From the NCBI RefSeq assembly GCF_021730305.1, contig NZ_CP032674.1, positions 1,845,001-1,909,000 on the forward strand: a stretch of 64,000 bases of DNA, read 5' to 3'. The notes beneath the pieces are model-generated. The model saw only the letters and a program-made list of their open reading frames with translations. It made no database searches and was not told where the DNA came from. Positions 21,230 through 59,813 of the stretch are shown piece by piece; the stretch's first letter is position 1, and each line of letters opens with the position of its first letter. Both the position numbers and the translations under genes were made by a program. Source of the DNA: Xanthobacter sp. YC-JY1. Its GTDB lineage: Bacteria; Pseudomonadota; Alphaproteobacteria; Rhizobiales; Xanthobacteraceae.

Positions 21230-21943
21230 TCAGCCGAGCATGGGCACCATCCGCGCCACCGCGATGCCCTCCGGGGTGATCCGGCAGGCGAGGGCGAGGG
21301 CCTCCACCCCGGCGTCCCGCGCCCGGTCGAAGGCGCGCTTGTAGGCCGGGTCGAGATCGCGGGCGAGGGCGATGGATTCGGCCGAGGCGATCTGGCTGAT
21401 ATAGACCATCACCGCCCGCCGCCCGGCCGCCACCTCGCCGGCCAGCTCCTCCAGATGCTTCGCACCCCGGGCGGTCACGCAGTCGGGGAACTCGGCCTTG
21501 CCGGGGGCGCGCATGAGGTGGACGTTCTTCACCTCCACGAGGCAGTCGGGACGGGCGTCGTCTTCCAGCTTGATGTCGACGCGGCTGGCCTTGCCGTATT
21601 TCACCTCCCGCCGCATCCGGGCGTAGCCGGAGAGGGGCGGCACCTGGCCGGCGGCGATGGCCTCGGCCACCAGCAGATTGGGGTGCATGGTGTTGACCCC
21701 CACCCATTCCGGCCCGGCACCGAAATCGGCCTCCACCAGCTCCCAGCTCAGGGCCAGCTTGCGGGCGGGGTTGAGGGAGCGGGAGAGGAGCACGCGGCTG
21801 CCGGGGGCATCGAGCCCCAGCATGGCGCCGGAATTCGCCACATGGGCGGTGGTCTCGGTGCCGTCGTCCAGCACCACGTCGGCGAGGAAACGCTTGTAGC
21901 GCCGGACCAGCCGGCCCGGCAGCAGGGGGGCCGCGAACAGCAT
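21230..21943 (-). CDS. sfsA: Sugar fermentation stimulation protein SfsA
   Basis: SfsA family protein, 237 residues, normal length. It starts [20 protein letters not shown] and contains the family signatures [34 protein letters not shown] and [16 protein letters not shown]. The fold combines an OB-like domain with a nuclease-like domain; E. coli SfsA was linked to maltose metabolism, but the biochemical role is uncertain. The first 36 coding bases lie in a 40-bp direct repeat whose other copy follows the thioesterase gene, so the gene was intact before and after the insertion but lost its upstream partner. Confidence 0.93.
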
Positions 21944-21947
21944 CAGG
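21908..21947. repeat. 40-bp direct repeat, copy 1
   Basis: Perfectly identical to 22883-22922. This copy includes the first 36 bases of the intact sfsA gene. The two copies bound an AT-rich insertion. Confidence 0.95.
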
Positions 21948-22068
21948 AGGCGCGGGCGGTCGAGTAGCTATGGTCGTTGAAGCGGCGCATAAGTTTGGTT
22001 TCTAGATCGGATGGATAATCAAAGGTCGCAGCGGCAGCGGGCCAGCATACGAGGTTGATCTTGTTTTT

Positions 22069-22077
22069 TGGTACAAT
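22069..22077 (+). promoter_or_regulatory. Extended -10 promoter candidate for the inserted gene
   Basis: TGGTACAAT has an extended -10 (TGn) followed by TACAAT, 31 bases before the ATG at 22108. A TTGATC lies upstream, but its 11-base spacing is too short for a -35. The insert may therefore bring its own promoter. Confidence 0.4.
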
Positions 22078-22107
22078 CAGAAATCTCGATTCGCACGGAT
22101 CTACCCA

Positions 22108-22872
22108 ATGCCTCTCGACGTCGAAAAAAAGCAGATGGTATTAGAGTATTGCGAGCGCGATCTACCAGATAACATTTGGTTTTTAAGGCAATTTGATTTT
22201 GTAGACAATATCCCACTGAAGCAAAAATTAGCACAAGAATTCTACGCGGCAAGGTACATCTACAAACTTGGAGAAGCTCTTTCAGTTGATGAAGCCCGAC
22301 TTCATGCGCATTTAAAATTTCAAATAATGCAATATGCGTCAATATATGAGGCGATTATAGTTTACCTTCTATGGGATAAATTTACATCACATTCAGAGTT
22401 GGAAAAGATTCAATACCATAAAACATATAAATTGGCTGCGACTTTTCCAGGCGGATTGAATATCACAAACGCAGACGGAGAAGAGGTGTTCTTGTGTGTT
22501 CAAAGAAAAGAAAAAACTAGTACATTTTCGATAAAATTCGACGACAAAGTTGATGCGGCAGTTGCAATCGGATTCGTTCAAGAGTCAATTGGAAGCGAAA
22601 TTAAGGAATTCTATCGTCTGAGAAATGCAATTCATTTGGAAACGGCAATAAAAAAATCGATTGAATATGAGTTAGGTCAGGCGCAGTTGGCTTATTGGAG
22701 GATGCAGCCATTTATCGAGTACATTAAGGCTCAGCTTCCCGTTCTCCTTCGTGATGGAGAGGGAGGTGCCACTTCTCTCCTAAGTGCCCCCCCGGTTGAT
22801 CATGTGATGGATAGTGCGCCAGTCGCGGATAATTTGGAAGCTGCAGTCCCTCCTTTGCCTCCGGCTACCTGA
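22108..22872 (+). CDS. Orphan protein in AT-rich insertion, HEPN-like RN..H motif
   Basis: I do not recognise this 254-residue protein. It is predicted mostly helical and soluble, without signal peptide or membrane segments. The stretch EFYRLRNAIHLE (about 167-178) carries R172-N173-x-x-H176, reminiscent of the RN-xx(x)-H catalytic motif of HEPN ribonucleases and of many toxin or abortive-infection proteins. A second helical region (about 64-95) contains HLKFQIMQYASIYEAIIVYLL, cut here for description. The last 40 residues are Pro/Ala-rich and of higher GC. Codon use is AT-rich, unlike every neighbour, which indicates recent transfer. A defence or toxin function is inference from motif and context only. 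A run of seven C at 22787-22793 lies near its 3' end. Confidence 0.7.
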   Translation: MPLDVEKKQMVLEYCERDLPDNIWFLRQFDFVDNIPLKQKLAQEFYAARYIYKLGEALSVDEARLHAHLKFQIMQYASIYEAIIVYLLWDKFTSHSELEKIQYHKTYKLAATFPGGLNITNADGEEVFLCVQRKEKTSTFSIKFDDKVDAAVAIGFVQESIGSEIKEFYRLRNAIHLETAIKKSIEYELGQAQLAYWRMQPFIEYIKAQLPVLLRDGEGGATSLLSAPPVDHVMDSAPVADNLEAAVPPLPPAT

Positions 22873-22918
22873 TTCTTTCCATCAGCCGGCCCGGCAGCAG
22901 GGGGGCCGCGAACAGCAT
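22865..22918 (-). pseudogene. Duplicated sfsA 5' remnant
   Basis: The second 40-bp repeat keeps the sfsA start codon and 12 codons ([12 protein letters not shown]), then runs into insert DNA and stops at TAG after 17 codons. Its ATG overlaps the thioesterase stop as TGATG, which shows the ancestral coupling of thioesterase and sfsA. Confidence 0.8.
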
Positions 22919-22922
22919 CAGG
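22883..22922. repeat. 40-bp direct repeat, copy 2
   Basis: Perfect copy of 21908-21947. It overlaps the last codon region of the thioesterase gene and marks the right edge of the insertion. Confidence 0.95.
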
Positions 22923-23388
22923 CGCGCACGTCGCTGCGGCCGGCGAGGCACATGAGGGTCTGGGTGGCGGTGGCGCAATGGATGCGCGCGCCGTCAGCCT
23001 CGGCATAGACCTCCACCTTCGCCACGGTGAGGGTGCGCCCCGCCCGCGTCACCTCGCCCACGGCCACCAGCCGCTCGCCCTTGCCGGGGGCCATGATGTT
23101 GATCTTGTACTCCACCGTCAGCACGGTCGAATCCGGCGGAAACAGGCTGAAGGCGGCATAGCCGCCGGCGGTGTCGGCGATGGCGCCGATGGAGCCGCCG
23201 TGGAAATAGCCGTGCTGCTGGGTCACCTTGTCCGCATAGGGCAGCACGATCTCCACCCGGCCCGGCGCCACCGCGCCGAGCTCGGCGCCGAGGAGGATCA
23301 TGAAGGGCTGGCGGGCGAAGCTGTCGCGCACCTTGGTCTCGAAGGCGGGGTCGCGGGGGGTGAAGGGCTCGGTCACGGTGGCCGTCAT
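22918..23388 (-). CDS. PaaI-family hotdog thioesterase
   Basis: 156-residue acyl-CoA thioesterase of the hotdog fold. The signature HGYFHGGSIGAIADTAGGYA contains the HGG turn and the acidic residue used for catalysis in PaaI enzymes. Start ATG 23388 follows a stretch of purines (minus strand CTCCCTCCCC complement) and gives the family N-terminus with ARQPFMILLGAEL. Substrate is unknown. It was probably cotranscribed with sfsA before the insertion split the pair, since its stop still overlaps a duplicated sfsA start. Confidence 0.9.
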   Translation of the reverse strand: MTATVTEPFTPRDPAFETKVRDSFARQPFMILLGAELGAVAPGRVEIVLPYADKVTQQHGYFHGGSIGAIADTAGGYAAFSLFPPDSTVLTVEYKINIMAPGKGERLVAVGEVTRAGRTLTVAKVEVYAEADGARIHCATATQTLMCLAGRSDVRA

Positions 23389-59197: not shown

Positions 59198-59323
59198 CCT
59201 CTCCGCCGTCATGGCCCGGCTCGTCCGGGCCATCCACGCCTCCGCCGGAGGGGCGCCCGGAAGGGAGGCGGCGGACTTGCGGCGCGGTGGATCCCCCGGA
59301 CGAGCCGGGGGATGACGGCTGGA
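59198..59323. repeat. 126-bp repeat, copy 1 (contains an inverted family B pair)
   Basis: It matches 59381-59506 with three substitutions. The unit begins CCTCTCCGCCGTCATGGCCC, includes GGGCCATCCACGCCTCC, and ends GGTGGATCCCCCGGACGAGC then GGGGGATGACGG. Its two ends are inverted family B hairpins. Confidence 0.85.
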
Positions 59324-59380
59324 GAGGGGCCGGCTCACCTCTGGCGTCAGGGGCAGTGCCGCCGGCCACTTGGTGGCCTG

Positions 59381-59506
59381 CCTCTCCGCCGTCATGGCCC
59401 GGCTTGTCCGGGCCATCCACGCCTCCGCCGGAGGGGCGCCCGGAAGGGAGGCGGCGGACTTGTGGCGCGGTGGATCCCCCGGACGAGCCGGGGGATGACG
59501 GTTGGA
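59381..59506. repeat. 126-bp repeat, copy 2
   Basis: Near-perfect copy of 59198-59323, 183 bases downstream. Together the copies occupy most of the 369-base gap between the ligase and the GIY-YIG gene. The linker between them (59324-59380) holds nothing recognisable. Confidence 0.85.
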
Positions 59507-59516
59507 AAGATCGCGA

Positions 59517-59813
59517 TCAAGGCCGGGCAATGTCATCGTACAGATCCAGCCAGTGCGGATTTTCACGTTCGATGAGATTCATTTTCCACTCGCGCGGCCA
59601 TTTCTTCAGCCGTTTCTCACGTGTGATGGCCCCATAGGCCGTGTCATGCTGTTCGAAATAGACGAGCTGCTTGACGCCGTAGGTTTTCGTGAAGCCTTTT
59701 GCTTCTTCGCTGCGGTGTTCGAAAACTCTGCGCACGAGATCGTTCGTCATTCCGATGTAGAGCGTTCCATTGGGTTCGCTGGCGAGGATGTAGACGAAGA
59801 AGGCGGCGCTCAT
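59517..59813 (-). CDS. GIY-YIG nuclease superfamily protein (UPF0213-like)
   Basis: 98 residues. VYILASEPNGTLYIGMTNDLVRR contains the GIY-YIG core (shortened reading: VYI...LYIG), and an EH-type residue with REKRLKKWPREWK follows. Small UPF0213 proteins of this kind are single-domain endonuclease-like and of unknown role. ATG 59813 overlaps the exonuclease stop (ATGA), so it is translationally coupled to it. Confidence 0.88.
   Translation of the reverse strand: MSAAFFVYILASEPNGTLYIGMTNDLVRRVFEHRSEEAKGFTKTYGVKQLVYFEQHDTAYGAITREKRLKKWPREWKMNLIERENPHWLDLYDDIARP

Follow-up and report, generated by a model that had tools for sequence, protein, structure and literature searches.

Foreign or displaced DNA may enter a chromosome without a recombinase when a break is healed. 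In Streptomyces, according to the available part of the report on non-homologous end joining (NHEJ), DNA of 30 bp to 18.8 kb was inserted at the healing site, with end-joining fill-ins of 1-4 nt (PMC5869714). For primate numts the available part of the source reads target duplications, which are 1-11 nt long, as filled cohesive breaks formed during passive DNA capture (PMC2567098). The locus described here, in Xanthobacter sp. YC-JY1, shares with such break-captured filler DNA the arrival of foreign or displaced DNA without a recombinase, and differs in its 40-bp duplication, as compared with the lengths given in the available parts of both reports. In the open-licence literature, with most subscription journals lying outside that search, no report of bacterial one-gene capture with a target duplication this long was found.

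The closest described proteins are of the HEPN type. HEPN proteins were noted in integron cassettes and a role as dormancy RNases was proposed for them by Anantharaman et al. 2013, whose text, as far as available, names an integron HEPN family (PDB 3jrt) and describes canonical HEPN as having a polar residue after R and the motif at a helix end (PMC3710099). The motif of the HepT toxin is given as RX4HXY in the available part of PMC7641770.

The insertion and its empty site

The window is the whole stretch of 64,000 nucleotides of the host chromosome that was analysed. Its features at the insertion are listed in Table 1. The two 40-bp copies are identical and lie exactly where the sequence-only reading of the window had placed them, and a search of the whole 5,392,410-bp chromosome with up to three mismatches allowed returned the two flanking copies only. 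The interior is AT-rich, as that reading had stated (GC 0.43 versus 0.69 in the flanks); the AT-rich portion is the central ~700 bp (GC 0.28-0.50 in 50-bp steps), and the ends of the insert, at about 0.5-0.6 GC, are less AT-rich than the centre. Its further observations of a single enclosed gene (254 codons) without a recombinase-like family match and of no tRNA at the insert were borne out, the only tRNA of the window being 33 kb distant. The gene is antisense to both neighbours.

Table 1. Features of the insertion locus (window positions)
Feature	Position	Strand	Basis and remarks
sfsA, 237 aa	21230..21943	-	Pfam PF03749 2e-42, PF17746 7e-21; start codon within left 40-bp copy
Left 40-bp copy	21908..21947		Comprises the opening 36 bp of sfsA and 4 further bp; next letters AGG-CGCG
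935-bp insert	21948..22882		GC 0.43; one gene
Gene for predicted HEPN-like protein, 254 aa	22108..22872	+	Alignment, AlphaFold2 model, fold comparison
Right 40-bp copy	22883..22922		Supplies thioesterase stop codon; remainder is a second copy of the sfsA start
Thioesterase (4HBT)	22918..23388	-	Pfam PF03061 8.5e-14; stop overlaps duplicated sfsA start codon

A total of 41 genomes was searched (the host, 13 congeners and 27 further relatives), 34 of which carry SfsA; the sfsA loci were viewed in 29 relatives, four other SfsA-bearing relatives being set aside. Alignment with relatives, a check proposed from the sequence alone, revealed an exact empty site in G002, the closest relative by SfsA identity, and removal of one 40-bp copy together with the interior yields the junction as it stands in G002. 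The thioesterase gene lies directly beside sfsA, with no insert, in 10 of the 13 congeners; adjacency of the two genes was found in one of six loci of other genera of the family and in none of ten loci of the order's other families. The insert DNA is absent from all 13 other congeners, the one genome of the genus (1/14) that contains it being the host itself. The empty site and the insert-free congeners rule out an ancestral state, in which all relatives would have the same arrangement. The corresponding 40-mer differs at 3 of 40 bases in G002 and at 2 of 40 in G009. Since the two copies in the window are identical and both have variants that neither G002 nor G009 has, it was in this lineage that the duplication arose. 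The conclusion that the locus is a derived horizontal insertion with a 40-bp target duplication holds.

The blastn alignment to G002 shows a 51-bp overlap at the insertion. The empty site reads CATCAGG-CGCG, and in the window the letters next to the left copy are AGG, with CGCG after them; from these few letters the duplicated segment may, suggestively only, be one of 44 bp with a 3-bp AGG slip.

Neither neighbour is broken, because the duplicated stretch includes both the thioesterase stop and the sfsA start; without a duplication, an insertion at this overlapping stop/start junction would break one gene. The sparing of both neighbours may explain the persistence of the insertion scar, and, as a 40-bp duplication spares both genes, the duplication length observed would represent a filtered sample. 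The stop-to-start spacing of thioesterase and sfsA differs among congeners, from about 2 to 41 bp (L003-L010, L014, L015), and the junction is thus generally labile.

An assembly artefact or contamination is very improbable. For it speaks that one genome only was found to have the insert. Against it, the host assembly consists of one contig with a completeness of 99.99% and a contamination of 0.06%, the join is exact, the neighbouring genes are both intact, and the insert gene is intact and belongs to a real family.

The predicted HEPN-like protein and its homologues

In the AlphaFold2 model and the fold comparison the 254-aa protein has the HEPN helical-bundle fold, with a low-confidence C-terminal tail of about 40 residues, and is predicted from the model to be HEPN-like. 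Residues Y169, R172, N173 and H176 are invariant, R172 and H176 being present in 13 of 13 aligned sequences. The spacing between R172 and H176 is three residues (Rx3H) instead of the canonical Rx4-6H, for which reason the protein is not filed as a canonical HEPN RNase; at most it works like HEPN. The asparagine after the arginine and the helix-end position of the motif both fit the canonical description in the available part of PMC3710099. In comparison with HepT, the window protein reads Y-x2-R-N-x2-H with no tyrosine two residues after the histidine, and a beta insertion precedes its motif helix. A HEPN/MNT module was rejected: the insert is one gene, without an MNT nucleotidyltransferase partner, and its neighbours are the thioesterase and sfsA. 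With the integron HEPN (3jrt) the protein shares a HEPN-like fold, and several of its homologues resemble integron cassettes; the differences are the Rx3H spacing and a window copy without attC. It is at most a candidate member of that family, 3jrt being absent from the 50 matches listed in each fold comparison.

Searches of the insert gene against PADLOC and NCBIfam gave no match. Weak matches were obtained to phrog_35412 (1.6e-5) and phrog_22334 (0.17), both of unknown function, a P34-Arc match fell below the Pfam cut-off, and profiles A1 and A2 gave chance-level matches only against PDB chains. The order-level search with profile A2 returned, beyond the host's own genome, one weak fragment (G571, E 4.9e-4) with two internal stops, which was left out of the family count. 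The class, order and phylum samples overlap, and their counts were kept separate. The family of the gene is rare and patchily distributed.

The flanks of 13 homologous loci were read. Four of them (L033, L034, L035 and L037) show, by eye, a GTTRRRY core situated 22-31 bp ahead of the start codon and, from the stop codon onward, a sequence resembling attC, and hence look like integron cassettes; the attC of L033 was also recovered as an inverted repeat. L039 has the 5' core only, without attC. L042, a Vibrio plasmid copy, resembles by eye what we take to be a Vibrio-type cassette, and in the remaining seven loci neither core nor attC is clear. An attC regular expression returned no candidates anywhere, over a scanned stretch that missed the stop codon, which the attC 5' core overlaps. 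The nearly identical cassette proteins of L034 (2863-3510) and L035 (10001-10648), compared by eye, belong to Halopseudomonas and Rheinheimera, respectively, and this near-identity suggests that the integron-borne form moved between genera recently.

The neighbours of several homologues point, by association, to a toxin or defence role of the family. In Methylobacterium (L038) the homologue has a type III methylase on one side and a UvrD-type helicase on the other, with GC 0.37-0.39 in flanks of 0.64-0.69; a PtuA-like ATPase is encoded three ORFs upstream of the homologue in L039; that of L040 adjoins a UG13 reverse transcriptase, and that of the viral contig L046 a phage integrase. The 254-aa protein itself would be a dormancy or defence RNase. 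The data point to a HEPN-like family that is associated with integrons and uncatalogued, and whose invariant Rx3H motif lends itself to direct tests for RNase and anti-phage activity.

In L043 (5938-7680), on a Planktothrix plasmid that also bears a BREX gene, a HEPN-like region and pentapeptide repeats are combined in one annotated protein. Where methylase and helicase meet in the type III methylase-UvrD operon there is a slot that varies (L038:9978-10711; L105-L117). Ten order-level loci contain both genes; the slot measures at most 39 bp in four, 139 bp in one and 373-1139 bp in five. The contents of the longer slots are of lower GC, with seemingly unrelated ORFs; in L038 the slot is occupied by the HEPN-like gene. 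The flanks of six tested slots have no perfect repeat of more than 12 bp.

Mobile-element readings of the insertion

From the sequence alone the insert had been proposed to be a minimal integrating cassette mobilised in trans, with the suggestion that homologous loci might each carry long direct repeats. No such repeats were seen: perfect flanking direct repeats of more than 17 bp within 2.5 kb were found at none of the eight homologues in genome contigs, a test confined to perfect repeats, as distinct from imperfect ones, and to genome loci, as distinct from plasmid and viral ones. With none in eight, a trans-mobilised unit that always makes long duplications is unsupported. The earlier interpretation thus stands as regards a horizontal insertion whose loss with one repeat copy restores the ancestral state, and is unsupported as regards mobilisation in trans. 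Its refuting case, homologues always embedded in an element that supplies the recombinase, applies in part, to several cassette-like copies and to L046 beside its phage integrase, and not to the window copy, which is neither. That HEPN-like single genes spread without a recombinase of their own, by a process leaving target duplications of about 40 bp, is considered a long shot. If true, one-gene defence modules of GC-rich bacteria with Ku would have a capture route of their own, or a mobiliser acting in trans, with duplications far longer than the end-joining scars found described.

Known classes of element were compared with the insert in turn. A transposon or insertion sequence was rejected, as the gene has no transposase match and a search of the insert for terminal inverted repeats gave nothing beyond chance, 1506 of 2000 shuffles reaching at least the same score. 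A scan of the insert for promoters and terminators gave none of either, no better than shuffles. An integron cassette at a secondary site was rejected likewise: attC is missing, and the 160 bp upstream of the gene contain no GTTRRRY. In the window copy only 10 bp separate the stop codon from the right repeat, too little to accommodate an attC. Insertion by an integron integrase is not known to make a 40-bp duplication.

Site-specific elements bounded by attL and attR have in common with the locus direct repeats that rebuild a host gene end, and exact repeats of such size that do so are typical of attL/attR. It is unlikely that the locus is what an internal deletion has spared (attL, attR and a single cargo gene) of an integrative element, be it a satellite, an ICE or a prophage, with the sfsA start as the 40-bp attachment site of its tyrosine recombinase. 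The viral-contig homologue directly beside a phage integrase speaks for such an origin. Against it, no recombinase gene stands between the repeats and nothing in the insert was recognised as a piece of an integrase; viral contigs contain no exact match to the 26-base core of the repeat, so that a phage attachment site was also rejected; and in the 11 of 29 relatives with adjacent thioesterase and sfsA, to which this search applies, the two have no larger element between them.

Direct repeats without loss of target would also result from single-crossover integration of a 975-bp circle already bearing the 40-bp sfsA start. In its favour, 40 bp is near the lower limit for homologous recombination. 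Against it, the circle must carry the lineage-private variants of the 40-mer; it would therefore derive from an already inserted copy, which moves the question back. This origin is rated improbable. Both the element remnant and the circle are less likely than the two accounts that follow.

Proposed capture at a staggered break

The account favoured, tentatively and as one that falls somewhat short of probable, is that foreign DNA was taken up at a staggered break, followed by fill-in and by Ku-LigD sealing. A foreign fragment of about 0.9 kb with one intact HEPN-like gene would have entered the lineage after its split from G002 and G009, its nearest congeners among those examined, where the chromosome broke at the overlap of thioesterase stop and sfsA start. 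Two nicks, offset by about 40 bp, would have produced long cohesive ends, the filling of both ends would have duplicated 40 bp, and Ku-LigD end joining would have sealed the fragment into the chromosome. The host possesses a Ku gene whose neighbour encodes a LigD with all three domains (polymerase, phosphoesterase, ligase), and about 3 kb away there is another Ku match; the machinery for NHEJ capture is present, a presence that does not show its use at this locus. Break capture is favoured by what the insert lacks: a recombinase match, an attC, terminal inverted repeats and a tRNA in its vicinity. The route itself is one that we infer.

The length of the duplication weighs against break capture, 40 bp being long for it and well beyond both precedents. 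Scars of this kind would also be expected in many Ku-bearing bacteria. No second insertion of like type was seen, either in a repeat scan of a contiguous 464-kb stretch of the host (8.6% of its chromosome) or at the seven gaps inspected among the 38 listed in the chained alignment of the host with G002, none of which has a long duplication.

The length is less awkward for replication template switching, in which a stalled nascent strand would have switched from the sfsA junction to foreign DNA, copied about 0.9 kb of it, and on its return annealed 40 bp back from the point where it had left; backward re-annealing would give a duplication of any length. Insertion and duplication would then arise without a staggered double-strand break, and the AGG-AGG step at the left copy looks like a slip. 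Template switching copies mostly nearby DNA, however, and the insert has no DNA-level source in its own genome or genus. That the left end is filler from the host was rejected for its first 100 bp, the best own-genome match outside the locus being 16 bp, and the same 100 bp gave chance-level matches against 101 genomes (best E 0.008). No match was found for the insert DNA in plasmids, nor for a 35-base piece of its left end in viral contigs. Template switching is ranked next after break capture, as a possible but rather doubtful origin.

Many single-gene horizontal insertions are too old to be read, and the one in the window keeps its exact target duplication. As a close relative has a clean empty site and both neighbours are spared, it offers a good natural test of whole-gene capture by bacterial end joining.

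In the 464-kb scan the 40-bp pair is the sole perfect direct repeat of at least 25 bp, at distances of 150-8000 bp, that encloses low-GC DNA. Three perfect direct repeats of at least 30 bp were found at these distances, two of which are parts of a 183-bp tandem repeat; this lies at 59198-59560 of the window and shows as perfect repeats of 57, 38 and 24 bp. The alignment with G002 covers 265 of the 464 kb. The gaps inspected were those with extra DNA on the host side, as distinct from those with extra DNA in G002, and several of them represent replaced sequence, not clean empty sites. Within this host-versus-G002 sample the insertion event looks isolated. Five other low-GC islets were found in the host scan, of which the one at 1919851 was looked at in detail. 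It belongs to another AT-rich insertion relative to G002, outside the window (G000:C1:1919638-1920829, L061), which has no long flanking repeat and holds a 261-aa ORF that, by eye, is methyltransferase-like.
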